Positions 32,781-62,032 of a DNA stretch of 64,000 nt are shown piece by piece. The notes beneath the pieces were generated by a model. The model saw only the letters and a list, made by a program, of their open reading frames with translations. It did not search any database and was not told where the DNA came from. Source of the stretch: Solobacterium moorei (lineage in GTDB: Bacteria > Bacillota_I > Bacilli_A > Erysipelotrichales > Erysipelotrichaceae); contig NZ_AP028934.1 in NCBI RefSeq assembly GCF_036323475.1, positions 2,294,001 through 2,358,000 on the forward strand. The letters are read 5' to 3'. Numbering within the stretch: the first letter of the stretch is position 1; each line of letters begins with the position of its first letter. The position numbers and the translations under genes are program-made.

Positions 32781-33575
32781 ATGATCACAGCAATACTAAA
32801 CATCAAAGGTGGTTGTTCCAAAACACTGTCAGCTGAAATGCTTGCAAGGGGATATGCAAAAGAAGGTAGAAAAACATTAGTAGTAGATGCAGACGGACAA
32901 GGGGATATTACTTCTTCTTTAATGCCACACATCAATTTTGATCAACCTGAAAATGTTGGGGGCGTTACGCCCCCGGAAAAGGGAACCATTGTGGACTATC
33001 TGAAAGGAAACAAAAAGATAGAGGATTGTATCTGGCATACAAAGATCGAAAACATTGACTTGATCCCATCCAGTATGGACTTGTTCACTGTCATCTATGA
33101 AATGCAGGGAAGAGGTGGTGCAGATTTCTTGTTGGGAAATGCATTAAAGGGATTGGACTATGACGAGATCATCATCGACAATAACCCTTCCATCAATAAG
33201 ATGACCTATAACTCCATCTATGCGGCAGATGTAATCATCTGTCCTACAAATATTAGTGAAAAGACATTGAAGGGAGTTATGAATACACGTGGTGTATGCG
33301 TGCAAGCATTAGATGCATTGCCATTTAGCAAGCCTTTAAACTTCAAGATTGTCCTTACAATGATGACACGAAACAATAACTGTAAAGAAGGAGCAAAACA
33401 GTTAAGAGCAGCATTTGGAAAAGATGTATTTGATACACAGATTCGATTCCAACAGAAGCCAGTGCAGGATGCAGAATTTAGTAAGAAGTCCCTATTAGAC
33501 ATGAAAGCTGGTGTAGCTGAAGACTATAGAAATTTGACAAAAGAAGTAATTCAAAAGGATGAGGTGCATGCATGA
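32781..33575 (+). CDS. parA: ParA-like partition ATPase with divergent P-loop
   Basis: A 264-residue ParA/Soj-family protein for segregation or maintenance of the element. The deviant Walker A reads NIKGGCSKT, in which the usual Gly before the catalytic Lys is Ser. The Walker A' region is VVDADGQGDITSSL and Walker B is IIIDNNPSI, both altered from the consensus. The hairpin repeat is inserted in frame near residues 59-66 (ENVGGVTPPEKG). GGAGGG precedes the ATG, and the stop overlaps the parB start (ATGA). Whether it still hydrolyses ATP cannot be told from sequence. Confidence 0.85.
   Translation: MITAILNIKGGCSKTLSAEMLARGYAKEGRKTLVVDADGQGDITSSLMPHINFDQPENVGGVTPPEKGTIVDYLKGNKKIEDCIWHTKIENIDLIPSSMDLFTVIYEMQGRGGADFLLGNALKGLDYDEIIIDNNPSINKMTYNSIYAADVIICPTNISEKTLKGVMNTRGVCVQALDALPFSKPLNFKIVLTMMTRNNNCKEGAKQLRAAFGKDVFDTQIRFQQKPVQDAEFSKKSLLDMKAGVAEDYRNLTKEVIQKDEVHA
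32958..32974 (+). repeat. Hairpin repeat, copy 1, inside parA
   Basis: GGGGGCG-TTA-CGCCCCC, a seven-base stem with a three-base loop, in frame within parA (GGVTPP). The loop differs from the AAA/TTT of the other copies. Confidence 0.9.
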
Positions 33576-35805: not shown

Positions 35806-35826
35806 CTGGGGGCGTTTTGCCCCCAG
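35806..35826 (+). repeat. Hairpin repeat, copy 3
   Basis: CT-GGGGGCG-TTT-TGCCCCC-AG with one G-T pair at the loop base. It lies immediately before AGGAGG of the next gene. Confidence 0.95.
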
Positions 35827-40980: not shown

Positions 40981-43770
40981 ATGAATTTGAAAAGTTCATT
41001 GAAGAAAACGGCCACCATCGCACTCAGTGCCTTGATGGCTTTTTCTTCCTTCCCTTTGACTGCATATGCAGAAGGGGAAACAACAGAATCAATAGATGTT
41101 GATACAAAAGAAGTCAGTGAAACAAGTCCGGATGTTGAAAAGACGGAACTGAATCTGGAAACATCCAAAACACAGCCGGAAGCCGTTTCGGAAGAGACTG
41201 CTGAAGAGGGGCAGGAAACACCGGCAGAACAGCCGGGTGAAACTGTGACAGACACAAACAGTCTGATCATGGATGTTGCCGGAAATGATACGGTCTTTGT
41301 ATCAAAGAACGGTGAAACGGAAGCGTATGTCGGAGGAGATTCTGCACGCTATACGATCAGCTACGTTGAAACAGACAGTTTAGAGGTTACAGCAGCGAAT
41401 GCATCATACTTTGTTGTCTGGAGAAATGACGGCACGACAGAAAGTCATTTTAATGAAGATGTCATCTATACCGTGCAGCCGGGTGATGCGTATATCTCCG
41501 TTGGACAGGGACTGCAGGCACAACGGCGCTCAGGCAGAAGAAGACGCAGCACTGCCAGTCTGGACACACTGGAGGTAGGTGATACCTTCTCTGGAACACT
41601 GGGAACGTCCAATACCAATCCGGATATAGGAAATGAGACTTTCTATATCGACTACATTGACGGATTGCTTGGCGGGGCAGCCGGCCAGATCTTAAACAAC
41701 CTGGCGGTTTACTGCTTAGAGCCGGGATATATCGGTCTGACATACAGAACAGACTATGAACTGCCCGGTAATCCAAAGACCTATTATCCGTACAATGCGA
41801 CAGTAACAGCAGTACAGCCTGACGGAAGAGTAACGATCCATATTGATGTACCGAGATACTTAAATCCTTATACAGGACAAGAAGCGACAGGATGGAATGC
41901 TCAACTGGGAACAGTTCCGTATCAGAACTGCGGTGCCGACTGGACAATTCAGACCGCTCCACGTAAGAAGATGATGTATGTGGCAGTGCAGAAGAAAAAC
42001 GGTAATCCGGCACTGACAAAAGGAAACAGCTGCTATGCAAGTGATTTAAGCGGTGCTGTATATGGCGTTTACAGAGATGCCAACGCAACGGATAAGATCA
42101 CTGAGATCACAACAGACGCTGAAGGAAAAGGTAAGTCAGAAGAGTTTGAAATTGGACCTACTGCTACAAAGGTGTATGTCAAGGAAATCAAAGCTCCGAA
42201 GGGATTTGCACTGGATCCGAAGGTATATCCGGTTGAGTACGATGGGGACAGCTGGACGATCGACTCGGTTGATCAGCCAATGAACGATCCGCTGGTTATA
42301 ACTTTAAATAAAATAACCGAGGATGGAACAGTTGTGGAAAATCCTGCAAGTTTGGCAGACGCTGAATTTACAGTTAAGTATTATGACGGGCAATACACAA
42401 TGAATAACCTTCCTGCAAAGCCTACAAGAACATGGGTAATTAAAACTGTTAAAACTCAAACAGGAAAGTATAGAACTATACTTGATAAAGATTTCTTGGT
42501 TTCGGGAGATCCTTTATATGAAAGCGAAGGTAAAGCAACTATTCCTCTTGGAACAATTACAGTTGAGGAAACCAAGGCTCCAGCCGGTTATACACTCAAT
42601 AATAAGACTTTGAGTATCGGTGGAGCAGTAATAACAGACGGTAAAGCTCTGTTTAATATTGTGGACATGAATGGTATTGGTAGAATTCGGAGTGGTAATG
42701 AATATACCGTAGTTGAAGGTGTTGTACGTGGTGGGTTGGAGATTCAAAAGAAAGATGCAGATACAAATGAAAATGTAGGTACTGCAACATTCCAGATTGT
42801 TAATAAGAATAACTATGATGTAGTTGCTCGAGATAAAAATGGAGATGTTGTAGCTACAGCAGCTGCTGGTGAAAGTTTACCATATACAATCACAACAGAT
42901 GCTAACGGATACTGGAAATCAAACGATAGTTTCCTTCCGGCTGGAAAATATGAACTTGTAGAAACCAAAGCCCCTGAAGGATATTATCTGAATACTGATC
43001 CAAAAGCATTTGAAATCAAAGATAATAAAACAATTGTTGGCATCGATTATGAAGATGCAAAGATCGTCATTGACGTAGCTAAAGTAGATGATCATGGAAA
43101 CAATGTTTCAGGTGCCATTCTCCAAGTAATTGAAAAAGATACCGGTAATATTGTATTTGCATATACAACAGGAAATAAACCGGTAGATATCAGCAAATAT
43201 GTCGAAGGTGGAAAAAAATATATCCTTAGAGAATCTGAAGCACCATTTGGTTTTGAAAAATTTGAAGATATCGAATTTGAAGTAACAGGTACAAGACAAC
43301 ATGAACAAGTTGTGATGGCTGTAGATACACGTAAAGTGTTCTACGTGAGTGCAATCAAGGTAGATGCTATGGATAACTCAAAGAAATTAAAGGGTGCTGA
43401 ATTGACGTTATTTAAAGCGGATGGCACGGTTGCTTTAGATAAGGACGGTAAGGAGTGCAAAGGCATCACTGATGGTGAAGGAGTTATCACTTGGGCTGTA
43501 GAGTTCGCCGATGACTTGGGTGGTTACTATGTGCAGGAAACAGCAGCACCTGAAGGTTACCGAATCAATAATGAACATCATCAAGTTGTATTGAGTGAAG
43601 ATTATGATTTTGCAGTGAATAACGCTGTACAGGTAGTAGTTAACGATACAGCTTTACCAGCAGTTAAAACAGGTGATACATTCAATGCAGCATTGTTTGC
43701 ATGTATGTTGATTGGTAGCTTGGGTGCAGCAGTGTTCTTATTTCTTAAGAAGAAGGAATTGATGAAGTAA
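40981..43770 (+). CDS. SpaA/Cna-B-type surface adhesin
   Basis: A 929-residue secreted protein. The signal peptide is near residues 1-31 (ending TAYA). An acidic low-complexity part follows, then a globular N-terminal domain (about residues 95-340) with AVYCLEPG near residue 245, as in thioester-type adhesins. Five SpaA-like prealbumin repeats follow, each ending in an E-x(2-3)-AP-x-G-[FY] segment: KEIKAPKGF, EETKAPAGY, VETKAPEGY, RESEAPFGF and QETAAPEGY; such repeats often form Lys-Asn isopeptide bonds. The C-terminus has LPAVKTGD, a membrane segment and KKKELMK, a non-canonical sorting signal. AAAGGAGG precedes the start. Role: host or partner-cell attachment during conjugation (inference). 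Confidence 0.9.
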   Translation: MNLKSSLKKTATIALSALMAFSSFPLTAYAEGETTESIDVDTKEVSETSPDVEKTELNLETSKTQPEAVSEETAEEGQETPAEQPGETVTDTNSLIMDVAGNDTVFVSKNGETEAYVGGDSARYTISYVETDSLEVTAANASYFVVWRNDGTTESHFNEDVIYTVQPGDAYISVGQGLQAQRRSGRRRRSTASLDTLEVGDTFSGTLGTSNTNPDIGNETFYIDYIDGLLGGAAGQILNNLAVYCLEPGYIGLTYRTDYELPGNPKTYYPYNATVTAVQPDGRVTIHIDVPRYLNPYTGQEATGWNAQLGTVPYQNCGADWTIQTAPRKKMMYVAVQKKNGNPALTKGNSCYASDLSGAVYGVYRDANATDKITEITTDAEGKGKSEEFEIGPTATKVYVKEIKAPKGFALDPKVYPVEYDGDSWTIDSVDQPMNDPLVITLNKITEDGTVVENPASLADAEFTVKYYDGQYTMNNLPAKPTRTWVIKTVKTQTGKYRTILDKDFLVSGDPLYESEGKATIPLGTITVEETKAPAGYTLNNKTLSIGGAVITDGKALFNIVDMNGIGRIRSGNEYTVVEGVVRGGLEIQKKDADTNENVGTATFQIVNKNNYDVVARDKNGDVVATAAAGESLPYTITTDANGYWKSNDSFLPAGKYELVETKAPEGYYLNTDPKAFEIKDNKTIVGIDYEDAKIVIDVAKVDDHGNNVSGAILQVIEKDTGNIVFAYTTGNKPVDISKYVEGGKKYILRESEAPFGFEKFEDIEFEVTGTRQHEQVVMAVDTRKVFYVSAIKVDAMDNSKKLKGAELTLFKADGTVALDKDGKECKGITDGEGVITWAVEFADDLGGYYVQETAAPEGYRINNEHHQVVLSEDYDFAVNNAVQVVVNDTALPAVKTGDTFNAALFACMLIGSLGAAVFLFLKKKELMK

Positions 43771-45331: not shown

Positions 45332-45508
45332 ATGGATAAAGAACTGATCAAAATGATTGAGGATAGTCAAGAGGGCTTTTCTGAAGAAGAAATGCAAGAG
45401 ATGTGCGCAGAAATGAATGGGGAATTTACCGGAAATCAAATTAAAAATAAGATCAATGAAATGAACGACGGTGAAATGATCACCGTTATTTTAAACAGCG
45501 GAGCATAA
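45332..45508 (+). CDS. Small acidic protein of unknown function
   Basis: A 58-residue helical acidic protein (MDKELIKMIEDSQEGFSEEE...) that starts one base after the stop of the preceding gene and uses AGGAAAGGTAGG as its ribosome-binding site. It ends four bases before the RadC-ArdC gene. It was found by reading the gap directly. No family recognised. Confidence 0.6.
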   Translation: MDKELIKMIEDSQEGFSEEEMQEMCAEMNGEFTGNQIKNKINEMNDGEMITVILNSGA

Positions 45509-45512
45509 TAAT

Positions 45513-47270
45513 ATGACGGATACAGGGAAGACATATACATACAACGTTCCAGATAAACATAAACTATATGAACTGAAAGAAATCAAGGTACGTTTAAAAC
45601 CGGAAGATGGTGAAAGTTTACTTAGTAATGAGATAATCGATTCTCCGGATGCTGTGATTGGATTGATGCAAGGATACCTAAACAATCTTGATAGAGAAAA
45701 ACTTGTCGTGGTCAATCTGGATACACAGAATAGACCGTTGTCCTATCATGTTGTATCGATTGGTGATGTAAATAGGTCGCTTGCACCAATACAGAACATG
45801 TATAAAACGGCAATTCTAAATAATGCTACCTCTATCATGCTGTTCCATAATCACCCTTCAGGAAGTCTTGTGCCAAGTAGAACAGATGATATTATTACAG
45901 CTAGAGCTGCATATGTGGGACAAATCATGGGTATCAATATTTTGGATCATGTGATCGTCGCCAATAACGCAAATGATTATTTTTCGTATAGATCACAAAA
46001 AGGTGAAATCCTGGAAACACCACGTATCGTGCTGGATAAGATCGATGTTGCGGGTGTTGCTGAAGAAACAGAAAACTATCATGTCGAAGAAAATATCATG
46101 CATGCAAATGATACGGAAGCAGGTCAGATAAAATCAGATGACACAAAAGATACAAAACCTAAAAAGAGCGTGCAGGATAAAGTCGATGAATACAGAAAAC
46201 TTGTTGCAGATAAGTTCTTGAAACTGTTGGATGCGGATAATCCCGTTCATTCAATGGACTGGATGAAAGAATGGATCTCCATAGATGAACCTGTCAGCAT
46301 GATCACCGGTAATGGGTACAGAGGAATTAACGCATTTATGCTCTCACTGATCGCCATAGATAAAGGATATAAAGACCCACGCTGGATCACATTTCACGGA
46401 TTGAATAAATTTGATGATGCAAGGATAAAAAAGGGAGAAAAGTCATCACAGATCCAGTATTGGATGCTTTCGGATCTTACCAAAAAACACGGTGATAAAA
46501 ATAAATTTATTACCTTTCAAGAAGCGGCAAGATTGATCAAGGAGGAAGGCAGAGAAGAGAAGGATTTTGCGCCGGTCGTAAGATATTCCAATGTATTCAA
46601 TGCGGAGCAGTGTACAGGACTTCCGGAGCTGGTTCAAAAAGAACAAGAACAACAAATTAATCAGAATGAGTACGTGACAAAGATCTCCGAGAAAATGAAA
46701 GTTCCTATTCTGAATGACGGAGGAGCATTTTACAATCGTAAAAGTGATGCGGTACATCTTCCGGAAAAGAAGATGTTTTTCAGTGAGTATGCATACAACG
46801 CCACGGCACTTCATGAATTGGGACACGCAACCGGGGCAGCGCATCGTCTGAACAGGACAAAGGGAAAATCTTTCGGAGATGCAGATTATGCATTTGAGGA
46901 ACTGGTTGCGGAGATGACAAGCTGCTTTACCGCATCAAGGCTTGCAGGTGATGAACAAAGCATTGATAAGTATCTCAAGGAAAATGCAGAAAATCATATG
47001 CGTTATGTCAAAAGTTGGGCAGAGGAAATCAAAAAGAATCCGAAGTGTCTTGAAGACGCTGTGAAACTTGCACAGACTGCTACGGATTTTCTGGATCTGC
47101 ATGGCGGTTATTTGTCATTGAGCGAATATAACCGGCGACAGCAGGATAAACAGGTTGAGTTGTTTAATGATGAATTTATCATGAAGAACGCATTACACAG
47201 TGATACCATTGCAGAACCGGTAAATATTCAAGTGAAATCGGAGGTACAGGGAAGGGGAATAAGCGTATGA
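45513..47270 (+). CDS. RadC-like JAB domain fused to ArdC-like antirestriction protein
   Basis: A 585-residue two-part protein. Residues about 1-165 form a RadC/JAB-MPN metalloprotease-like domain with the motif LFHNHPSGSLVPSRTDD (HxH-x7-S-x2-D). Residues about 220-560 form an ArdC-like protein. Its N-terminal ssDNA-binding domain (YRGINAFMLSLIAI..., WITFHGLNKF) is followed by a zinc-peptidase-like domain with ALHELGHATGAAHRLNR and a downstream Glu in FEELVAEMTSCF. ArdC proteins protect incoming DNA during conjugation. Both putative metal sites look intact. Its stop overlaps the ATG of the lipoprotein gene (ATGA). Confidence 0.85.
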   Translation: MTDTGKTYTYNVPDKHKLYELKEIKVRLKPEDGESLLSNEIIDSPDAVIGLMQGYLNNLDREKLVVVNLDTQNRPLSYHVVSIGDVNRSLAPIQNMYKTAILNNATSIMLFHNHPSGSLVPSRTDDIITARAAYVGQIMGINILDHVIVANNANDYFSYRSQKGEILETPRIVLDKIDVAGVAEETENYHVEENIMHANDTEAGQIKSDDTKDTKPKKSVQDKVDEYRKLVADKFLKLLDADNPVHSMDWMKEWISIDEPVSMITGNGYRGINAFMLSLIAIDKGYKDPRWITFHGLNKFDDARIKKGEKSSQIQYWMLSDLTKKHGDKNKFITFQEAARLIKEEGREEKDFAPVVRYSNVFNAEQCTGLPELVQKEQEQQINQNEYVTKISEKMKVPILNDGGAFYNRKSDAVHLPEKKMFFSEYAYNATALHELGHATGAAHRLNRTKGKSFGDADYAFEELVAEMTSCFTASRLAGDEQSIDKYLKENAENHMRYVKSWAEEIKKNPKCLEDAVKLAQTATDFLDLHGGYLSLSEYNRRQQDKQVELFNDEFIMKNALHSDTIAEPVNIQVKSEVQGRGISV

Positions 47271-48210
47271 AACTAAAGAAGGTATTATTGATTGCACTGA
47301 CAGGTTTTTGCTTGTTGGATGTACCGGTTCAAAGGTCGTGACAGAAGACACTGATCCGGTTGAATCGATTGCCGGTGAACCATTCAGTATCAAGAAAGAC
47401 CGGGTTCTTGTAAATTGGAAGGGCATTAAAGTTACTACCCTTGGATATGATGAAACGGACACTCATGAATGGCATAAAGTCGATTTCAGCAAAGTATATC
47501 AGGGTTTTAAGGTGAAGATTGAAAATAAATCAAAGTATGATATACGGGTAGAACCATCCTCCATATCAATCAATGGATATACAGTGAACGACTTTCTCAA
47601 AGATTCAGCAAGTACATATGTTTCCTCCGGAGAAGAAGGATCTGCTAAAGTTATGGCATTTCTTGAAGAAGAACTGGAAGATATAGGGATCTTAAATGTC
47701 GGAAGAATAGGAGTTGTTTTTAACATTTACAATGCAAAAACATCAGAGCTGCTGCATCGTAGTGAGACGCTGTTTATACGGACGAGCGACTATGAAAAGA
47801 TGGATGCGGAAGCTGCTTTTGAATCACAGGAAGTGTATGATGAATCCAATGTAGCGATCGGGGCAGCTATGGTCACGTATCATACGAGTTTTTTATATAC
47901 GGTGGTTGAAAATAAAACGGATCAGGAGTTGATCGGAGAAGTCAAAAATATCACGCTCATCGATCAGAAAGGAAAAGAAGTTCCTGTTCCGGATGACAGA
48001 TATCAGCTTCTGATCGCTCCTAAATCCAAAGCGATCATATCTCATGTAATCGATTATTCTGACGGTGTCAGGTTTACGGTCGAATTAACCGATAGAGAAA
48101 CCAATGAAAAGATTCTTCCAACGGATGAACTGTTTATGGATCTTCATGTGGATGGAAGTCAAATGTGGCAGGATATTGAAGCCGAAAAGGCTGCACTGTA
48201 TGAGAAGTAA
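47267..48210 (+). pseudogene. Lipoprotein gene with apparent -1 frameshift in the signal peptide
   Basis: The ATG at 47267 overlaps the previous stop (ATGA) and follows GGAAGGGG. It opens a signal peptide (MKLKKVLLIALTGF) that stops soon after, at CGTGA. The rest of the protein is in another frame from about 47308 and begins LLVGCTGSK, a lipobox. Adding one T to the T5 run at 47305-47309 would join them as MKLKKVLLIALTGFLLVGC, a perfect lipoprotein signal. The mature part (about 290 residues) has a FxxxSxTLFIRTSDYE-like region and DUF5067-like beta-sandwich character. Either a sequencing error, a mutation or slippage is involved. Confidence 0.65.
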
Positions 48211-48212
48211 TA

Positions 48213-48241
48213 TTGTTGAAAAGCAGTAAATATGATATTAT
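48213..48241 (+). promoter_or_regulatory. Promoter of the two-copy RNA
   Basis: -35 TTGTTG (48213-48218), 17-base spacer, -10 TATTAT (48236-48241), directly upstream of the repeat RNA. Confidence 0.65.
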
Positions 48242-48247
48242 TTCTAT

Positions 48248-48566
48248 GTCAAATATGGCGACGGTGTTAGATATACATAACACTGAATTTGTGTCCGAAC
48301 GTCCGAAGACATACAGCCGGTTGCTTTAGCACTTTCTAAATTTCTTATATATCCGGAACTTATCTAAAGTAAAGGCAAACAAAAACTATAGGCGATGTTT
48401 CATTCAATTTGTGTCCGAACGTCCGAAGACATACAGCTGGTTACCATCAAAATACTGATTACCGGATAAATCAGACGATGGCAAACGCAAACAAAAACTA
48501 TAGGCGATCTATTCATTATATTTGACGAAGGAGAAACCGATTGGAATTTATCTGATCGGTTTTTTT
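48248..48566 (+). ncRNA. Two-copy structured RNA, candidate antitoxin RNA
   Basis: Two units of about 120 bases. Each begins with a conserved block (48286-48321 and 48406-48441; contains TTTGTGTCCGAACGTCCGAA and GACATACAGC). A variable loop region follows, and each unit ends with GCAAACAAAAACTATAGGCG (48375 and 48487). In each unit GTT after the first block can pair with AAAC before the second. The adjoining helix differs in sequence but not in pairing: TTTA/TAAA in unit 1, CCATC/GATGG in unit 2. A promoter precedes it and a terminator follows, then the toxin-like gene. The layout matches type III antitoxin RNAs (repeats, terminator, toxin). The transcript start is estimated from the promoter. 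Confidence 0.6.
48534..48566 (+). terminator. Terminator between the repeat RNA and the toxin-like gene
   Basis: Stem AAACCGAT (48534-48541) with ATCGGTTT (48555-48562), 13-base loop, then a run of seven T. In type III toxin-antitoxin loci a leaky terminator at this place keeps antitoxin RNA in excess over toxin mRNA. Confidence 0.9.
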
Positions 48567-48586
48567 CATGTCTGAAAGGAACATAT

Positions 48587-49444
48587 ATGAGTTTTAAATT
48601 TTATACGATCTCAACTAAATTGAGGGACAGCATCGACAGGAGTCTGGATCGTGGTTTGCATAAAAAAAAGATACGACCATATTTTCTGGGTTTGAAATAT
48701 GACGGTTATCATGTACTGTTGCCGCTTAGGAGTAATTGTCCCAAAAGATATAGTGTCGCAATCGATCATCCCGATCCAACAAAGGAGAACCATGGGATCG
48801 ATTGTACGACGATGCTGCTGTTGCGTAACAGAGAACTAAATACAATGGCAAAGGAAATACAATTACATCCTTATGAAGTGGCAGAAAATGTAAAAAATAA
48901 ATATTCCCGGATACACGCAATGGCGATGTATACGATTTCACAATATAAAGCCATTCAGGAAGAGAAAGAAAAAGGTATCCAACTAACAAAAGATGATGCC
49001 TGGCTTGATCATCGCTGCACGCTGAAGAATTATCATGCGGAACTTGGAATAAAGCCATATATTCAGGCAGAAGAAAGCAGGCAGCAGGATTTGGAGAAAG
49101 CGAAAAGATTGATCAAAAGGTATCGTAAAACCCAGAAACATCAGACTGATTTTTCAGATATGAAACATGTGCTGATTAATAAGTTCAGTACCCGGGACGG
49201 AGGAAATTATTCCGTAGAAGCAAACCTGGAAAAAGCAAAGATCACATATTACCAGGATGCAGCAGTAATTAAAGAATATCAATTTCATAATTTGCAGGGG
49301 ATGAACAATAAATTTTTAGCAAATTTGGATCGCAATAAGATGGCTGCCACTTGCTTGCGTTTTTCCAAGTCACAGGTGGTGACAGTACATGTTGAAATTG
49401 GTAATCCAATTCAAAACGTACAATCCAAAGGTAGGAAACTGTAG
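48587..49444 (+). CDS. ToxN/AbiQ-like toxin (type III TA endoribonuclease) with long C-terminal extension
   Basis: A 285-residue protein. The N-terminal part has the ToxN/AbiQ family signature: FKFYTIS at residues 3-9, then RPYFLGLKYDGYHVLLPLRS (residues 30-49) and CPK. In ToxN the corresponding loop (PLTSPK-like) carries catalytic Thr/Ser/Lys; Ser49 and Lys53 match here. A helical part (GIDCTTMLLL, AMAMYTISQYKAIQ) follows, as in the family. ToxN is about 170 residues, so the last ~120 (from about 165, including KHVLINKFSTRDGGNYSVEA) are an extra domain I do not recognise. The gene follows a two-copy structured RNA and a terminator. GAAAGGA precedes the ATG. Family assignment is from memory of the pattern and not a search. 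Confidence 0.65.
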   Translation: MSFKFYTISTKLRDSIDRSLDRGLHKKKIRPYFLGLKYDGYHVLLPLRSNCPKRYSVAIDHPDPTKENHGIDCTTMLLLRNRELNTMAKEIQLHPYEVAENVKNKYSRIHAMAMYTISQYKAIQEEKEKGIQLTKDDAWLDHRCTLKNYHAELGIKPYIQAEESRQQDLEKAKRLIKRYRKTQKHQTDFSDMKHVLINKFSTRDGGNYSVEANLEKAKITYYQDAAVIKEYQFHNLQGMNNKFLANLDRNKMAATCLRFSKSQVVTVHVEIGNPIQNVQSKGRKL

Positions 49445-51669: not shown

Positions 51670-52560
51670 ATGGGTATCTTTCGATCCGTATTATGGATAT
51701 TTACAAGTTTGGCTCTTGAGATAACGGATTACATTTATAAGATCATCATGAAATTTTTTAGTTTGAATATCAATCAGTTTCCATTTATCAAGAGTTTCTA
51801 CATCATCATAATCAGTGCGGTAGGTTTCTTTATGATGTTTCGTATCGCAGCAATGTTTGTACAAGGAATATGGGGCGAAAACAAATTGGACAAATTGGAT
51901 GGAATGGAACTAGCACGACGGATCATTGTAGCATTGGTCATACTGTCATTCATTCCATTTATGATGCCAAGATTAAATGATTTTGCGGCTGAATCAGCCA
52001 AGACTTTCCCAAAGATGATCTCAATCGGAGAAATACTACCGAGTGATGTGATCATCGAAGCAGGAAATGCCGAGTTTATTGGCAATAGCAGTTCTACCGG
52101 TGAAAAAGCAACATTAAAGACAGTTACCGAAAAGACAATCAACGATAAAAGCAGAGGGGAGTATGTCTATTTCAAAAAGACGGAAGGAATTGTACTTGTT
52201 TTGGTGTTGGCTGGAATCTGTGCATACACATTTCTGAACGTGGCAATCCAGGTGATCATCCGCATGATCTCATTATTATTAAAAATGGTACTTGCACCAT
52301 ATGCGGTATCAGGTCTGGTCGATCCGGATGATCAGGGGACGAATACATGGTTCAAATTATGTTTTTCCGATTATCTGGCTATCTTCTTTCAGGTGGTAAC
52401 GATGTGGATTGCAATGTTGTTTGCGACAAAACTACCGGCAGATTGGGGCGGTTTTGAAAAAGGAATCGCATTTGTGGGTGCGATCTTTGCAATCATCAAT
52501 GCGCCTAGTGGTATTGCACAAATTTTAGGTGCAGATATAGGTACACAAGCCGCAATGTAA
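51670..52560 (+). CDS. VirB6-like conjugation channel protein, 5' part before an in-frame stop
   Basis: A 296-residue polytopic protein with about six membrane segments, forming the channel core of the type IV secretion system (VirB6/TrbL type). The family segment LKMVLAPYAVSGLVDPDDQG followed by FKLCFSDYLAIFFQVVTMWI and NAPSGIAQILGADIGTQAAM is recognisable. The stop TAA at 52558-52560 is followed by the same open frame up to 53202, so the protein appears cut short at its hydrophobic core. AAGGGAGGAAGAAG precedes the start. See the gene at 52579 and the corresponding finding. Confidence 0.8.
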   Translation: MGIFRSVLWIFTSLALEITDYIYKIIMKFFSLNINQFPFIKSFYIIIISAVGFFMMFRIAAMFVQGIWGENKLDKLDGMELARRIIVALVILSFIPFMMPRLNDFAAESAKTFPKMISIGEILPSDVIIEAGNAEFIGNSSSTGEKATLKTVTEKTINDKSRGEYVYFKKTEGIVLVLVLAGICAYTFLNVAIQVIIRMISLLLKMVLAPYAVSGLVDPDDQGTNTWFKLCFSDYLAIFFQVVTMWIAMLFATKLPADWGGFEKGIAFVGAIFAIINAPSGIAQILGADIGTQAAM

Positions 52561-52578
52561 TCCTTACAATCCATACAA

Positions 52579-53202
52579 ATGATGACAGGAGCGATTAGTA
52601 CCGGTGCTGGGCTTGCCAAAGCTGGGGTTGGAATGGCAGCAGGCGCTGCATTAACAGCGGGGAAATTAGGAAAGACTGCCGGTGCATTGGGCATCTATGG
52701 GATAGGCAGAAAACTGGGTGCTAGAAGCCTGAATCCAATGAATGTTGGCGGTGGAACAGGGAGTTCCGGTGGGTTTGCGGGAAAATTAGGGAACGGTGGT
52801 ACGGACCAAATATCGGAGACCTTTGCGAATGGAGGCGACGCAGGCATAGATTGGAATGCAGAACCATCTGCTTCACGATCATCCGGAAGTGCTATGGCAA
52901 GTCCGTATATCAATGAGCGTGGTTCTGTACGCTATGCTGATAATCGAGTAACTGATTCAGATTCAAGACTGGGACAGATTGGACAAAACAGTCGAGCAGG
53001 TGGCATGGCTGCCTCATTTGCTTCATACATGTATAAGAAGTCAGCCGATCGGCTGTTCATGTCAAATATTCAACGAAAACATCTCAATGACACAAAATCA
53101 GTTGGCTCTACGATAAAAAATGTAGGGCAAGGTGTGCGATACTTCGGGAATGCGATACGCAATGCCGGCAGAAATGGAGATCTGGCAAATGGAACAGAAT
53201 AA
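52579..53202 (+). pseudogene. VirB6-like protein, Gly/Ala-rich 3' part, in frame after a stop
   Basis: A 207-residue Gly/Ala/Ser-rich segment (MMTGAISTGAGLAKAGVGMAAGAALTAGKLG...) typical of the C-terminal tail of Gram-positive VirB6-like proteins. It is in the same frame as the preceding gene, separated by one TAA and six codons (SLQSIQ), and no ribosome-binding site precedes its first ATG. It is therefore more likely the 3' half of one gene disrupted by a nonsense change, or expressed by readthrough, than an independent gene. The next gene overlaps its end. Confidence 0.65.
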
Positions 53203-53530
53203 GCAGATTGTTTTTACGTCACCAAGAAATTTTAAATACGGAAGATTGATCATGAACCGCTTCAGATTGAGTGATCTGATCATAGTGATCGCAGGTGTTG
53301 TATTCAGTTTTCTTGGATTGATTATTTATGTTGGTTTTTTGAGCCAATTCAACATATGGATTGTATTATTGCTGTTATTGCCGGCGGTGATCACTTACTT
53401 CTTGACACTGCCGGCAGGAATCTACCACAACAATATAGAGTTTTTAAAAGTGATTGTAAGGTATGTCATGACAAATAAAAAGTATATATGGGAAGGAATT
53501 TACAAACATGATTCGATTGAAGAAAAATAA
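53189..53530 (+). CDS. PrgI-family conjugation protein
   Basis: A 113-residue protein with two membrane segments (about residues 28-70: LIIVIAGVVFSFLGLIIYVG and WIVLLLLLPAVITYFL), and a small C-terminal part KVIVRYVMTNKKYIWEG. PrgI is the usual partner just upstream of VirB4 in Gram-positive systems. The start at 53189 (MEQNKQIVFTSPRNFKYG) follows GGAG; the frame extends upstream but is covered by the VirB6 tail. Confidence 0.8.
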   Translation: MEQNKQIVFTSPRNFKYGRLIMNRFRLSDLIIVIAGVVFSFLGLIIYVGFLSQFNIWIVLLLLLPAVITYFLTLPAGIYHNNIEFLKVIVRYVMTNKKYIWEGIYKHDSIEEK

Positions 53531-56120
53531 CGGTCGTGCGATGACACGCCTGGAGAGAGCGGAATATAAAAAATTGAAATCATCACAAAAAGCAGCCCAA
53601 GCAATCAAAAAGAAAGTAGCCACTTCGCTGAGATGGATGGATTTGCAAGAAGTCAAAGATGATTGCATGATTGTTGGTAAAGATAAAAAATATATCGTTA
53701 GAGGCATCAAACTGGAACCGCATGATATTTTTATTGACGATGAAGGAAAACAGCGTGCGATTCTGAATAATATCCGTCTGGCACTCAATCAGATGCCTGA
53801 TGAGGTATGGTTTGAGTTTCCGTACTCACCGGTTAATGCAGATAACTGGATCAATGATCTGAATCGTCAACTGCGTGGAGAAAGCGATCCGGTCATCACT
53901 CGCATGATCGAAGCGGATCTGGAAAAAATTTATGACTTTCAGAAGTATCACAGAGAGAAAGAATTCTTTTTACTGATACGTGATACGGATGAGAAAAGAC
54001 TTCATAAGAACCTGGAGGATTTGTATCGTCATTGGGCAAATGCCGGATTTGATCCTAAGGTATTGAATAAACGTGATTATTATTCATTGGTATCCTTTTA
54101 TTTTGAAAACAATATGATCAATGATTATACCTTCAGCAGAGGTATTTTTTCATATCTGAATGTACAGATGCAGCTGAATCAGCAGAAAGATGAATATGAA
54201 AAGATCGATCATACAGAGGACTTTTCACAGTACGGTGGTGAGCCGATATTAAATATCAAACCTTCAGAAAACCTGATTCAGCGTTCCAAGATCGCTCCGG
54301 TTGGCTTGCTGGTAAAAAACCGGTATTTGGAGGTTGGTGATAAATACGTTCAGAATCTTTTGGTAACGGAACTTCCGGATGTCTTTAATCTTGGACTTAT
54401 GTGTGATTATTTGACGGATCCGAACATCAAAGTGTTCATGAAGGCGAAACGCTCCAATAACGATCTGACAAAGATGCTTAATAAAGATCTGCGGACTCTG
54501 AAGGAACGATATCGTAGATCAAAGGACGAGATTGAAAAGGAAAAGATTCTGTCTGAAATCGAATCGCAGGAAGTATACATATCGGAGGTTGTAAGAAAAG
54601 CAGATCGAACACATGAGCTGACCGTTATATTCCAGATCGTCGCCGATGATGAAAAGGAATTGAAGGACAGGTTTGAACGGCTTCGCTCCAGATTGACATT
54701 GGATAAGTTTAAGGTTAGTGCTGCGCCGATGATACAAGAGCAGCTATTTAAAATGGCAACGCCGTTATTTGTTTCTTCAGGACTCAATCAGACGATAGAA
54801 GAGAATATAGGCGCACCGTTAACATCAGATGCGGTGGCGGGCATGTATCCGTATGTATTTGAAACACTGAACGACTTGTACGGTTTTCTGTTGGGTGAAG
54901 AAAGAGCAAACGGCGGTAAAATCTTTCTGGATCCCCAGTTCTATCTGCATCAGCCAAAACAGGCTGCCATCACCAATCGTTTAAACGGAAACTTTGTTAT
55001 CGTCGGTACTGCCGGTTCAGGAAAAACTACTTTAACGGCATTGGTAATTAGATGGCTGATACGAAAGCGTATCTTTACAATATGGGTGGATCCAGAGAAT
55101 AAGAATGAGATCCTTACAAAGCGTTACAATGGAACTTATGTAAGCTGGGGACAGTTGGGGAATGTTATCAATATATTTGATTTAAAGCCAAATTCATCTG
55201 ATGAAGGTGAAGATGATTCGGCAATGTGGAATACGGGATTGGCAATCAACCGAGTAATTGAGGATGTTACGATTTTGTTTAAATTCTTATTCCCGCAGAT
55301 GGAAGAGGACGCACTGTCTTTTATCGGCGGTATCGTTAAAATGACCTATGCGGAAGTTGGCATTAAAGCGGATGAAAATGGTATGTGGAAATCATTTAAA
55401 GATCTTACAACGGAAGATATGCCGACATTTGAAACATTTAACACATGTTTATTAAGAGTTTTGAAATCCTATCAAAAGATGGGAAGCGGACATGTAGAAG
55501 ATGTAAAACTGCTTAGTTCCCTAGTCAGAAAGATGCAGCGTATCTTGACGGAATGGTCTGTTTATTTCGTCGGACATACGACCATCAAATTAAAGGATGA
55601 TGGCAGAAACATCATTTCTTTTGGCACCAAAGAGCTATTCAATGCTGACCAGGAATTAAAGAATGCTTTGTATTACTTGATGTTTAACTACTCTTGGTCA
55701 CTGTGTTTGGATGAAAATGTAGAGTCAGCATTCATTGTTGATGAGGCACACGATGTTATTCAGACATCGCATACGGCAAAAATGGTCGCTCAGTTCGTCA
55801 GACGTTCAAGAAAATATAAAAATCTGATGTTTCTGATTACGCAAGAGCCACAGGACTTTGCTGTTGATGCGGTCATCATGCATACAAGAGCAATGTTTAA
55901 TAATTCTGCGTATAAGATTGTGATGAAATTAAACAAGGCAGCTGCAGAAGGTTTTGAAAAGTTGGAATCTGTCAATGAGAATGAAATGTACTGGGTAAAA
56001 CATATATTCTCACAAGGTGATGCGCTACTGTTGATTGGGGATCAAAGAAGAATTCCGATCCATGTCAACGCAACGCAGAATGAGTTATGGGAGATGGGAG
56101 CGATGTTTACAGGGAAATGA
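53508..56120 (+). CDS. VirB4/TrbE-type conjugation ATPase
   Basis: An 870-residue AAA+ ATPase that energises assembly and substrate transfer in the type IV secretion channel. Walker A is VGTAGSGKTTLTAL near residue 501; Walker B is AFIVDEAHDVI near 741. The N-terminal half with ERYRRSKDEIEKEKI and the C-terminal segments LITQEPQDFAVDAV and KHIFSQGDALLLIGDQRRIP fit the Gram-positive VirB4 group. AAGGAATTTACAAAC precedes the ATG, which overlaps the PrgI gene by 23 bases. Length normal. Confidence 0.93.
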   Translation: MIRLKKNNGRAMTRLERAEYKKLKSSQKAAQAIKKKVATSLRWMDLQEVKDDCMIVGKDKKYIVRGIKLEPHDIFIDDEGKQRAILNNIRLALNQMPDEVWFEFPYSPVNADNWINDLNRQLRGESDPVITRMIEADLEKIYDFQKYHREKEFFLLIRDTDEKRLHKNLEDLYRHWANAGFDPKVLNKRDYYSLVSFYFENNMINDYTFSRGIFSYLNVQMQLNQQKDEYEKIDHTEDFSQYGGEPILNIKPSENLIQRSKIAPVGLLVKNRYLEVGDKYVQNLLVTELPDVFNLGLMCDYLTDPNIKVFMKAKRSNNDLTKMLNKDLRTLKERYRRSKDEIEKEKILSEIESQEVYISEVVRKADRTHELTVIFQIVADDEKELKDRFERLRSRLTLDKFKVSAAPMIQEQLFKMATPLFVSSGLNQTIEENIGAPLTSDAVAGMYPYVFETLNDLYGFLLGEERANGGKIFLDPQFYLHQPKQAAITNRLNGNFVIVGTAGSGKTTLTALVIRWLIRKRIFTIWVDPENKNEILTKRYNGTYVSWGQLGNVINIFDLKPNSSDEGEDDSAMWNTGLAINRVIEDVTILFKFLFPQMEEDALSFIGGIVKMTYAEVGIKADENGMWKSFKDLTTEDMPTFETFNTCLLRVLKSYQKMGSGHVEDVKLLSSLVRKMQRILTEWSVYFVGHTTIKLKDDGRNIISFGTKELFNADQELKNALYYLMFNYSWSLCLDENVESAFIVDEAHDVIQTSHTAKMVAQFVRRSRKYKNLMFLITQEPQDFAVDAVIMHTRAMFNNSAYKIVMKLNKAAAEGFEKLESVNENEMYWVKHIFSQGDALLLIGDQRRIPIHVNATQNELWEMGAMFTGK

Positions 56121-57070
56121 CAAGAGAATTAGGAAAACTGAAGAAGTTTATAACGATATTTGCGATATCGGTTTTACTGTTGCCGCTTTTGTTTTCACTA
56201 TTGGCTGCAGCAAGTGTTGTGGCGGCACCAATCATCGCCCTGGATGCGGCAAAGACCTGGATTGTTGGTTGGTTTGAAGACGAAAATACAGCAACTGATC
56301 TGCTATCAAAATGGCATGCAGAAGTATATCCGAATTTTGAAGACTATGGTTCCCATGAAGAAGTCGGTTACGCTGAAGCAATATCTTGCTACTATTTTTT
56401 GGAAACGGGGGAAGATATCAATACAAAGATCCCCATGCGGGAGTATATGAATTATTTTACCGGAGATGAACAGCTCGAGCAGGTCTATACAAAGATTGAA
56501 GAAATTACCGGATTTATTTTTTCGGAAGAGAAAATCTCCAGGATTAAGACCTTAAAGACACAGATCGTCAGTAAAACGATTAACAGCATGTCGTTAGGAA
56601 GAAGTGAACTGGTTGCGGCACCGATCGAAGCGGCAATCGAATGGGGAACGGCTATCGCTAACGATAATAGTCATGGTTACTCTCAGATCACTCGATACGG
56701 GAATCCGAACTATGATTGCTCATCATTGGTATGCTATGCGATGCAAGCTGCAGGATTCAACATTGCTATCACTTCGACCCATAGTATGAAAAATATGTTC
56801 TTGGCTGAAGGGCATTGGGAATGGATTCCAAGTTACCAATTAGGTGATTTATCAAATTATGGTGTCCTTAGCGGTCAATCATCGCTTAGAAGAGGTGATA
56901 TATTATTGAATGAACAAAATCACACAGAACTATATCTGGGCGGTGGAATGAGCCTTGGAGCGCATTGGGATTGGGATGGAGTAAATGGTGATTCATCAGG
57001 TACGGAAATCAGTGTTGCGCAATACTGGGACTCCAACTGGGATGGCATTTTAAGATATACTGGTTCATAG
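56117..57070 (+). CDS. NlpC/P60 cell-wall hydrolase of the conjugation module
   Basis: A 317-residue protein with an N-terminal membrane anchor (about residues 10-40) and a C-terminal NlpC/P60 peptidase domain. The catalytic Cys is in NYDCSSLVCYAM (about residue 201) and the His in NHTELYLGGGMS (about 269), with a further His in LGAHWDWDG. It lacks the lysozyme-like domain found in many Tn916-type homologues, so it would cut only peptide cross-bridges to let the channel through the wall. The start overlaps the virB4 stop (ATGA). Confidence 0.85.
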   Translation: MTRELGKLKKFITIFAISVLLLPLLFSLLAAASVVAAPIIALDAAKTWIVGWFEDENTATDLLSKWHAEVYPNFEDYGSHEEVGYAEAISCYYFLETGEDINTKIPMREYMNYFTGDEQLEQVYTKIEEITGFIFSEEKISRIKTLKTQIVSKTINSMSLGRSELVAAPIEAAIEWGTAIANDNSHGYSQITRYGNPNYDCSSLVCYAMQAAGFNIAITSTHSMKNMFLAEGHWEWIPSYQLGDLSNYGVLSGQSSLRRGDILLNEQNHTELYLGGGMSLGAHWDWDGVNGDSSGTEISVAQYWDSNWDGILRYTGS

Positions 57071-57083
57071 CGCTTTAAAGTCT

Positions 57084-57120
57084 GGGGGCGACACCGTAGG
57101 CGTACCTTGGTAAACGCCCC
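57084..57120 (+). repeat. Hairpin repeat, long variant, copy 14
   Basis: GGGGGCGACACCGTAGGCGT followed by ACCTTGGTAAACGCCCC. The outer arms match the short repeat, with a longer loop between. It lies just before the sortase-like gene's ribosome-binding site. Confidence 0.9.
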
Positions 57121-57140
57121 AGAGGGAAGGAAGTGAGGAA

Positions 57141-58010
57141 GTGAAACAAAAGAAGATTATTTTAGGATGTTTGATTGCCGTTGTTTTAACGGGATTATTT
57201 GCATATGGTTATAATCAAAGAAGGAACAGATCAAAGGAAAACGTGGCACAAGAACACAGCAGTAATGTCGAAACGAAAGAAACATCGGTCGAACCGGAAG
57301 AAAAGCCGGATGATAATCCATATATTGCTGCAGATGATGTTCCGGCGGAAGAGGAGCATCCAACGATTACCTACAACAACTTCACATGGGATGCTGGATA
57401 TGAAGGTGCGTTTGAGAACACCAGAAGGCATATGCGTGAATTAACGGAAGATAATTATGACATTTATGGATGGATGTTATGGGATACCGGAATGGTGCAG
57501 GAAGAAATCATGAAGACGAATGATAACGAAAAATATTTGGATCATGCAGCCAATGGTGGAACGACCGATAAAGGGCAACCATTCTTTGATAAAGCTGCAG
57601 ATCTGAAAAATGATCAAGTCATTACGGTCTATAGTTATAGTACCGGAGATGTTGCTAGACTTGGCTATGTAGCAGATATTCTTGGAATTCAGGAAAACTA
57701 TGAACACAATAAGACGTTCTTGGTCGAATATGATGATTTTGCAGATTGGTTTCAGGTCGATTGTGTATTTGATTTGAGTCAAGTTCCGGAATTTGAAATC
57801 AATAAACGCAATTTCAAAAATAAGGAAGATTTTAAGAATTGGTACACTGCAGCAAAGGAAGCTTCAACAATCGATTCCGGTCTGAAGGCAAATGATCAAA
57901 ATCATTTCATGGTGATGAGTCTTCAGACAAGTAAAGATAAAAAATTCATTCTGTTAGCAAAAAGATTGAAACGATATTATTACAAAGATTTTGAAAAAAC
58001 ACCACAATAG
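57141..58010 (+). CDS. Sortase-B-like protein lacking catalytic residues (pseudo-sortase)
   Basis: A 289-residue membrane-anchored protein (membrane segment residues 4-23, then an acidic linker). Residues about 90-289 follow the class B sortase plan: NYDIYGWMLWDTGM (NPDVVGWI-like), KYLDHAANGGTTDKGQPFFD (YLHHDF-NG...GxxFxD), and FKNWYTAAKEA. The catalytic His (usually in IIYGHN) falls in VITVYSYSTGDVARL and is absent. The Cys (usually in TLSTC) falls in FMVMSLQTSKD and is absent. The Arg (usually RFVVHAK) is replaced in KFILLAKRL. It should therefore bind rather than cut sorting signals, or only be structural. GTG start with AGGAAGTGAG upstream. Active class B sortases occupy this place in many related elements. 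Confidence 0.7.
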   Translation: MKQKKIILGCLIAVVLTGLFAYGYNQRRNRSKENVAQEHSSNVETKETSVEPEEKPDDNPYIAADDVPAEEEHPTITYNNFTWDAGYEGAFENTRRHMRELTEDNYDIYGWMLWDTGMVQEEIMKTNDNEKYLDHAANGGTTDKGQPFFDKAADLKNDQVITVYSYSTGDVARLGYVADILGIQENYEHNKTFLVEYDDFADWFQVDCVFDLSQVPEFEINKRNFKNKEDFKNWYTAAKEASTIDSGLKANDQNHFMVMSLQTSKDKKFILLAKRLKRYYYKDFEKTPQ

Positions 58011-58031
58011 CAATTTGTTTTCGGCTTAAAC

Positions 58032-58071
58032 AAGCAGCACACTCAACCATTCAGGTTTCATGTGCTGCTTT
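58032..58071 (+). terminator. Hairpin after the pseudo-sortase gene
   Basis: Perfect ten-base stem AAGCAGCACA/TGTGCTGCTT with a 19-base loop, followed by TAAATA. It probably ends or stabilises the transfer-operon transcript. Confidence 0.65.
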
Positions 58072-58558
58072 AAATACATGGATGCCTTCGCAGAATACAA
58101 TCTGCTCAGGCTTCCTTTTTTTATTGCAATCTGTTTTAACAAACAGACTGCTAGATTAATTCTGATTTATCTTTCAAAGATCCTTGGCACTCCACGCTTT
58201 TCGCATAGACGAGATACAAAACAAGGATACGAGTTTCTGACGAAACTCTATCAAGCAGCTTCCAGATATTATCTGTCGCTGTCCTTTGTTTTTTATCTCT
58301 TGGCGTTACGCATTACGAACAAGATCTTATGGGTTGACCCTTGACCTTTTTGAATCCTGTGACAGCCAGCTGTCAAGGACGGCGCACTCTGTGCTTGCAA
58401 GTTCAAAATACTCAAGGGCTACGGTACAAGTACCTTGCAAGTCAACCGCATTTCATTTGCTAGGTTCTTCATGCTGCACTTTTCTATGCTTCATTTTGGG
58501 CGTGCCAAGGATAAGGCATTAGAAAGTGCTACCCTAAAGGTAGATAAGGAAATTCAAA
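58072..58558. other. Non-coding region with nested inverted repeats
   Basis: About 490 bases without a convincing gene, although two open frames cross it. A hairpin with TGACAG/CTGTCA arms lies at about 58355-58378 (loop CCAG), and the palindrome CTTGCAAG occurs twice (about 58395 and 58434). The sequence has the look of a conserved leader or RNA of gut-Firmicutes conjugative elements, but I cannot confirm that. Confidence 0.4.
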
Positions 58559-60400: not shown

Positions 60401-62032
60401 ATGGGACATGCAGATGTAATCGTTGATGTGGCATTTCTGCAATATGGTAAACACGCACCAAGCAATTCCGGGTTCAAAGGAATCGTCACAACAGAATCCG
60501 TATTTGGCGGATTTGTAAATTATCTGGTACGTGACAAAGCCATCAGCAATTCAATGGATGATGAATTAGTACGAGGTAAAGGAGAGCAAGCAGAAAAAAC
60601 TGTAAGCTCTCTTTTACATTCCGAACATGGACTGGATGGTTCACTGATGGATTATACAAGCAGAGAAAATGCAACGAAAAATTCAAATGATAAAGCATAC
60701 TTTACGATGACAAACGAAGGAAAGATTTATTCACAAGAACAACGTGAAGAGTGGATCAGAAATTCAATGAAGTCATTTTCCAAGGATGGCGATCTTATTT
60801 GGACACTTGTCGTTTCATTGGATAATTATGATTTGTTAAATGAATATGAGCTAAAGACGCAGGAGGATTTTGCAAGTACGACGCAAAAAGCGCTGAACAA
60901 AACATTTAAGAAGATTGGACTTGATCCGAAGAACATGATCTGGTGGGAAGATTTTCACACCAATACGGATCACCCGCATATGCATATTACGTTCCTTGAA
61001 AAAGAACATACAAGAGATCGAGGAAAGTTTACTGAGAAAGAAATCGATAAAGTTAAAACTACAATCATCACAGAAATTGCGGCAAGAAAAAGATATAAGG
61101 AACTGTATCTGCAGGAATCAGAAGATGCACTTAAAATGATCAATCCACTTAAAAAAGAAGTCATCAGTCAAATGGAAACTCTTTCTTATAAGACGTTAAA
61201 GGATGTATCCAATCTCTATTCACAACTGCCAAGAAGCGGACGCTTACAGTACAACTCCGCCAACATGGCACCATATAAAAACCAACTGGATAACATCGTG
61301 GAACAGATTTTGAAGAGTGATGAACTGAAAGGGACGTATGAACAGTTTGCGGATCATCTGAAAAAGTTTGATAACAATATGAATGCGATCGGCAACGAAA
61401 AAATATCTCATATGATGGAAAGAGAAGATACAAAACTGCGTGTGATGATCGCTAATGAGATACTCAAAGGATTCAAAGAAATCAAACAGGATCCGACTGA
61501 AAAAGCAAATAAAGTGCATACCTGGAAGATGGATCACGGTACGCAGCTTTTGTGGAATGCATTAGAGCAGATAAAAACAGATGATCTCTTGCCGGAACAA
61601 AAAATTGTGGTTCAGGAACTAAAGGAGCAAAACTTTGTGGCGGCACAAATGGCGATTAAGAATCTTGGCAGCTCTGCTGTGGATCAATATCTGAAGGGAA
61701 GCGTGATTGTGATTGCTTCTAAAGAAGATGCAGAAAAAGAAAGAGGTATCGAATATCTACATTCTGCATCTGAGCAGGGAAACAAACAGGCAAAGAAGTT
61801 TATGAACTTTTTTAACAGAAGTGTCAGTTTTACAAAAAATGAGTTCCATGGATACAAACAAAGATTTGGAATGCGGTTGCCAAAGTTTTTTAAACGCATG
61901 TTGAACAATCGAAAGAGAGAAGTTGAGGAAGAAATTGATGAGTATCTGAAGCAGAATCAAAAGAAGATATATGAAAAAGAGTCTGGAGAATATCCTAGTT
62001 ATAAAGTGAAAAGAGGTGAACAGAAGATATGA
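60401..62032 (+). CDS. MobL-family relaxase
   Basis: A 543-residue relaxase that nicks the origin of transfer and pilots the strand. The N-terminal half holds the MobL pattern: DLIWTLVVSLDNYDLL, then the histidine triad HTNTDHPHMHITFLEK (about residues 186-200). The C-terminal third is helical and includes Sel1-like repeats (GIEYLHSASEQGNKQAKKF). A nick-site Tyr could not be assigned. RBS AAGGAAGAGATG is close to the ATG. Its stop overlaps the coupling protein start (ATGA). Confidence 0.85.
   Translation: MGHADVIVDVAFLQYGKHAPSNSGFKGIVTTESVFGGFVNYLVRDKAISNSMDDELVRGKGEQAEKTVSSLLHSEHGLDGSLMDYTSRENATKNSNDKAYFTMTNEGKIYSQEQREEWIRNSMKSFSKDGDLIWTLVVSLDNYDLLNEYELKTQEDFASTTQKALNKTFKKIGLDPKNMIWWEDFHTNTDHPHMHITFLEKEHTRDRGKFTEKEIDKVKTTIITEIAARKRYKELYLQESEDALKMINPLKKEVISQMETLSYKTLKDVSNLYSQLPRSGRLQYNSANMAPYKNQLDNIVEQILKSDELKGTYEQFADHLKKFDNNMNAIGNEKISHMMEREDTKLRVMIANEILKGFKEIKQDPTEKANKVHTWKMDHGTQLLWNALEQIKTDDLLPEQKIVVQELKEQNFVAAQMAIKNLGSSAVDQYLKGSVIVIASKEDAEKERGIEYLHSASEQGNKQAKKFMNFFNRSVSFTKNEFHGYKQRFGMRLPKFFKRMLNNRKREVEEEIDEYLKQNQKKIYEKESGEYPSYKVKRGEQKI

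Follow-up and report, generated by a model that had tools for sequence, protein, structure and literature searches.

An integrative conjugative element of Solobacterium moorei carries an intact gene for a protein that is, by sequence homology and predicted fold, a class B sortase. None of the three catalytic residues of this enzyme family, His, Cys and Arg, is found in its sequence, and the protein is for this reason named a pseudosortase rather than a sortase. The gene lies in the stretch of 64,000 nucleotides analysed here (the window; positions without a contig name refer to it). With a probability of about 0.5, the pseudosortase is an accessory, non-catalytic cell-envelope component of the type IV secretion system of this element.

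The known pseudosortases comprise three distinct sequences in four gene copies from two Erysipelotrichaceae genomes. Three copies are found in the S. moorei genome: the window copy, an identical copy (100%) in a second element, and a copy with 46-50% identity in a diverged third element (copy B; C1:1747510-1782757). The fourth, with 31% identity, stems from an Erysipelotrichaceae MAG (G048; SUG162, JALENJ010000013.1).

The protein has the fold of a class B sortase

The open reading frame is uninterrupted, and its GTG start follows a purine-rich ribosome site, GGAAGGAAGTGAGGAA. In the protein, a positively charged N-terminus leads into a single membrane helix, which is followed by an acidic linker and one domain:

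57141..58010, plus strand: pseudosortase gene, GTG start, 289 amino acids; the encoded class B sortase fold lacks the catalytic residues
57150..57212, plus strand: N-terminal membrane anchor, about residues 4-24, predicted from the sequence as positive-inside with an extracytoplasmic C-terminus
57213..57362, plus strand: acidic low-complexity linker, residues 25-74, pLDDT about 30
57402..57980, plus strand: domain with the sortase fold, about residues 88-280; against SrtB, VIA-align gives Z 12.8 for 164-177 residues
57636..57638, plus strand: codon of Tyr166, which aligns with the catalytic His (YSYSTG in place of YGHHxxx)
57918..57920, plus strand: codon of Ser260, which aligns with the catalytic Cys, give or take a few residues
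57942..57944, plus strand: codon of Lys268 at the catalytic Arg position, from the alignment with SrtB relatives

The original prediction had recognised a class B sortase from the order of its family segments, and both sequence and structure comparisons bear this out. The NCBIfam profile TIGR03064 (class B sortase) matches with E=1.6e-12, although its 47.2 bits stay below the curated cut-off of 153.75, and NF040525 matches with E=2.1e-5. A phmmer search of the PDB ranks the S. aureus SrtB 4lfd first (E=1.2e-6); the Pfam search gave no match of note. Two AlphaFold models were made, one of the full-length protein with only the G048 homologue as second alignment row (pLDDT 47, poor), the other of the domain, for which two viral-contig sortases were aligned in addition to the G048 homologue (pLDDT 57, pTM 0.63). 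Confidence is low for both, and in the domain model it is weakest in the first third of the domain, though in Foldseek both find class B sortases first: the low-confidence domain model with E 8e-9, and the full-length model, built without any active sortase, with E 8e-6. In VIA-align, the domain model superposes on SrtB with Z 12.8 (164-177 residues, rmsd 3.2-3.8 A). The 16 class B entries all lie at Z 10.6-12.8, as compared to 7.8 for the best other sortase class. No NTF2 or VirB8 family is among the Pfam matches of the protein, and NTF2-like chains are absent from the fold lists, which does not exclude them.

With the class B sortases (S. aureus 4LFD/1NG5, C. perfringens 5B23, C. difficile 4UX7) the pseudosortase shares the N-terminal anchor, a helix in the beta6/beta7 loop and 15-20% identity over the domain. 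If the topology of these enzymes is carried over, its C-terminal domain would be extracytoplasmic. In contrast to them, it has lost the catalytic residues, its beta7-beta8 hairpin is two residues shorter, and its gene stands in a conjugation operon and not beside a substrate gene.

The catalytic triad is replaced

As had been claimed from the window sequence, all three catalytic positions are changed: in the alignment with SrtB relatives, His corresponds to Tyr166, Cys to Ser260 and Arg to Lys268, so that the columns read Y, S and K where the active enzymes have H, C and R. Among 30 active relatives, His and Cys are present in every one and Arg in nearly all. The same is seen in a wider set of about 45 SrtB relatives, in which every protein other than the pseudosortases retains His and Cys, and Arg varies in a few. 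The former His site is occupied by Tyr in all three distinct pseudosortases, even though these are only 31-46% identical, and the Arg column reads Lys, Lys and Pro. Because of the shortened beta7-beta8 hairpin, the Cys column can be placed only to within 2-4 residues; the window protein has no Cys at the catalytic site in any alignment register. We rejected a reading of its LQTS as the LQTC Cys motif, since this Ser is out of register, standing four residues too close to the Arg column. The sole extracellular Cys of the window protein, C208, is Ala in copy B and Gly in G048. The copy-B homologue (C1:1753435), read from its GTG start, contains no Cys in the whole protein, and thus no realignment can restore a catalytic Cys. 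The G048 homologue has a Cys near the catalytic site, but Tyr for His and Pro for Arg.

The gene probably belongs to a conjugation operon

The pseudosortase gene is surrounded by genes of the transfer machinery:

51670..52560, plus strand: TrbL/VirB6-like membrane protein (PF19597 5.3e-5, below cut-off)
53132..53530, plus strand: PrgI/VirB3-like protein (PF12666 E=0.0054, below cut-off)
53508..56120, plus strand: VirB4-like conjugation ATPase, overlapping the NlpC/P60 gene (NF045975 4e-68)
56087..57070, plus strand: NlpC/P60-type peptidoglycan hydrolase (VirB1-like), directly upstream of the pseudosortase (PF25309 1.7e-9, PF05382 7.5e-7, PF00877 3.3e-6)
57080..57122, plus strand: hairpin between the NlpC/P60 and pseudosortase genes, a longer-loop variant of the element-specific palindrome (see below)
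58032..58070, plus strand: hairpin just 3' of the pseudosortase stop, a 17-nt inverted repeat, 82% complementary; probable operon end
60401..62032, plus strand: MobL relaxase of the element (PF18555 2.1e-23)

All four pseudosortase genes stand directly behind VirB4 and then NlpC/P60, and in G048 only two bases separate the NlpC stop from the pseudosortase start codon. The constant gene order, this two-base gap and the hairpin after the stop make it likely that VirB4, NlpC/P60 and the pseudosortase are encoded in one operon. The idea that active sortases occupy this site in related modules found no support: among 14 modules with a related VirB4 (37-55% identity), including that of a fourth related element of the same genome (about C1:567-598 kb, no pseudosortase), none has a sortase after VirB4/NlpC, and most have nothing at the site. 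Active class B sortases nearby sit elsewhere, several of them directly behind large Cna-B/SpaA surface proteins, as does the one at C1:790052 of this genome. An open reading frame behind NlpC in another module (G075:C41, 182 aa) was rejected as a further pseudosortase, since it fails to match the sortase profile, its best domain scoring 4 bits and lying in the membrane helix. The VirB4 search of plasmid and phage collections gave no match, and the comparison is thus confined to modules of the family, as opposed to Tn1549-type ones.

Two side observations concern other sequence features of the elements. Directly behind the pseudosortase lie 331 nt without a likely gene (58030-58360), with counterparts at C1:1753097-1753424 and C1:586907-587218. 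This stretch is 99% identical between the window element and the third element, whose flanking proteins are only about 45-53% identical, and 82% identical in the fourth; it may reflect recombination, or contain an origin of transfer or a non-coding RNA. A sub-threshold Rfam match to mir-15 in the 3' flank of the pseudosortase gene was taken as chance.

The second observation is a perfect palindrome, GGGGGCGnnnCGCCCCC (often TCTGGGGGCGAAACGCCCCCAGA), of which the 2.6 Mb genome has 30 copies, all within the four related conjugative elements (C1:566995, 1547735-1561572, 1760779-1779972 and 2326958-2344651); as a control, the element part of the window yields 0.28 after shuffling. In the window, it is found at 32958, 34418, 36473, 37039, 38320, 43786, 44654, 50443 and 50635, with a variant at 35808. 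Some copies are intergenic and just precede ribosome sites, others are in frame within open reading frames. All seven copies in G048 are on the element contig, and one of them is placed in frame in the linker of the pseudosortase (GGETPP; G048:C59:59728-59744, L073 about 10110-10125), as if inserted; G075:C41 has a version with a CAG loop. The palindromes are possibly parS-like sites for the ParA/ParB-like proteins of the element (genes at 32781 and 33572, assigned from reading the translations), or a small mobile hairpin.

Sorting signals and wall proteins as possible partners

An adhesin of the element had been put forward as a partner of the inactive sortase:

40981..43770, plus strand: SpaA/Cna-B surface protein with an LPAVKTGD signal (PF17802 4.2e-51), in elements with and without pseudosortase

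A specific partnership with this adhesin is not supported, as its family is also present in the fourth element of the S. moorei genome and in the element of G056, both without pseudosortase. The signals in the family are LPAVKTGD, LPSVKTGD, LPARGVQTGY and a degenerate LPAIVKTAD, and these variants point to a V(K/Q)TG-type pentapeptide rather than an odd LPXTG for the signal, which had been called unusual. The degenerate form, with Ala for the sorting-signal Gly, terminates the adhesin of the fourth element (C1:573 kb region, L136:4252-6606) and is a single case.

The pseudosortase could nevertheless bind sorting signals and leave them uncut, be they those of the adhesin or of surface proteins of the host. 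The genome has two active sortases, and for one of these it would then be a chaperone, a competitor or a delivery factor. The equivalent of the groove residue Tyr128 is Tyr in all three pseudosortases; however, other substrate-contact positions are altered (the S. aureus SrtB residues N92, L96 and I182 are variable or missing), and these changed groove positions argue against a plain retention of sorting-signal binding. In the elements with pseudosortase the adhesin signals are of the VKTGD form, whereas the element without it has VKTAD, a contrast that amounts to one case, and the occurrence of the adhesin family in elements without pseudosortase speaks against such a role. The active sortase that is nearest by tree path is encoded near a large Cna-B protein. 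A precedent is provided by SipA of the S. pyogenes pilus islands, which has a signal-peptidase fold without the catalytic residues and is experimentally required for pilus polymerisation (PMC4049620). As with the pseudosortase, an extracytoplasmic processing-enzyme fold devoid of its catalytic residues is kept in a surface-assembly operon; unlike the pseudosortase, SipA has a fold unrelated to that of sortases and its need in pilus assembly has been shown experimentally. Taken together, we consider the binding of sorting signals unlikely.

Similarly doubtful is a second idea, in which the pseudosortase would be a hydrolase-linked wall-binding protein or VirB8-like scaffold, taking the place of VirB8/TcpC behind VirB1 as in Tn916-type elements and positioning NlpC/P60 or the channel in the wall. 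With its one membrane helix, small outer domain and gene directly after a VirB1-like gene, it resembles VirB8, TcpC and Orf13 of Gram-positive conjugation, which have the same build, adjoin VirB1 and interact with it according to a review (PMC12857230), and Pfam finds no VirB8 family among ten proteins of the element. However, the same review describes an NTF2-like fold that is present in most systems, whereas the predicted fold of the pseudosortase is that of a sortase. In the G056 element and in the S. moorei element at 583 kb, moreover, there is neither a pseudosortase nor a substitute at the site, and this rules it out as an obligatory VirB8. That review also mentions inactive VirB1 homologues as proposed adhesins; this precedent is weak, since the apparent source, a 2024 lactococcal adhesion paper, reports complete catalytic residues (PMC11067333).

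Distribution, origin and constraint

The second copy of the window element (C1:1534386-1563952) is 99.9% identical to the window segment 30578-64000, from which it differs by a 3.8-kb segment present in the window copy only (45417-49258). This segment carries an ArdC/RadC-domain gene (45513-47270) and a possible lipoprotein (47308). Scans for close relatives of the pseudosortase protein found nothing in genome-contig, viral-contig, plasmid and phage collections, the profile scan of the genome-contig collection returned the G048 MAG only, and the profile found no further pseudosortase in samples from the order (315 genomes), the class (395) and the phylum (392). The pseudosortases group as a single clade in a maximum-likelihood tree (support 100/100; stem of 1.28 changes per site), and therefore the catalytic triad was probably lost once, with a single origin of the group; the placement of this clade beside any particular active sortase is weak.

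The divergence between the window and copy B pseudosortases parallels that of their neighbours: third codon positions are 0.59 different and first plus second positions 0.35, as compared to 0.61/0.34 for VirB4, 0.63/0.36 for VirB6 and 53/32% for NlpC/P60. The corresponding dN of 0.48 and dS of 2.5 give a dN/dS of about 0.19, a rough value with dS near saturation. All four open reading frames are intact, with homologues down to 31% identity, and the block KRNFKNKEDFKNWYTAAKEASTIDSGL (DFxxWY...ASTI) is largely common to pseudosortases that are 31-46% identical. Because the divergence parallels that of the transfer genes, with the third codon positions changing most, the sequences indicate that the pseudosortase gene is kept under protein-level constraint like the adjoining transfer genes and is not decaying. 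Thus, the original prediction of a kept, intact gene in a conjugation module has stood.

This pattern makes a decaying relic of an active sortase improbable. The loss of all three catalytic residues, the patchy distribution and the faster divergence to G048 (31% identity, as compared to 68% for VirB4) would fit a relic, but not the intact reading frames, the third-position bias matching that of working transfer genes and the conserved Tyr at the His site together with the DFxxWY...ASTI block. The sortase pseudogene of C. difficile 630 (PMC4155245) is likewise unable to work; there, however, a stop codon precedes the catalytic Cys, whereas the pseudosortases are an intact, constrained family with active-site substitutions. 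A cryptic enzyme with a rewired active site, with Ser260 or Ser264 as possible nucleophile, is very improbable: the window protein has Ser and Lys at or close to the former Cys and Arg columns, but in copy B the aligned Cys column holds Val and the Ser of VVQTS is out of register, G048 has no Ser-Lys pair there, and no His is conserved across all three pseudosortases.

Proposed role and implications

A non-catalytic role, as had been proposed for an inactive sortase that binds or serves as a scaffold, follows from the fold, the loss of the triad and the constraint; its other part, the binding of sorting signals, is unsupported. For the preferred reading as an accessory envelope component, we suggest the following scenario: a membrane-anchored class B sortase fold would have lost its His-Cys-Arg triad and been retained by a conjugative element. 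Co-expressed with VirB4 and NlpC/P60, the protein would face the cell wall, where its old groove or its surface may bind a peptide or peptidoglycan stem, or else a partner like NlpC/P60, and it would hold or steer what is bound rather than cut it. Enzymes that have lost their activity have precedents in neighbouring systems, namely SipA and, as a weaker case, the inactive VirB1 homologues mentioned above. The link to DNA transfer is drawn from gene order alone. Since the pseudosortase is absent from some related elements, it is not essential to the transfer machinery as such. It is tempting to speculate, although the chance is somewhat less than even, that the pseudosortases are a dedicated family of sortase folds that no longer catalyse and have been taken over for binding or scaffolding in a Gram-positive type IV secretion system, beside its wall hydrolase.

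We found no conserved, catalytically dead sortase family in the open-access literature, subscription papers being outside this search. For genome annotation, the finding calls for caution: Pfam misses the pseudosortase and the NCBIfam match is far below its cut-off, so that similar dead members would be overlooked. If the proposed role is true, the envelope side of Gram-positive conjugation would include a type of component that the consulted passages of the type IV secretion review (PMC12857230) do not mention, and sortase folds would have a function that is not enzymatic.
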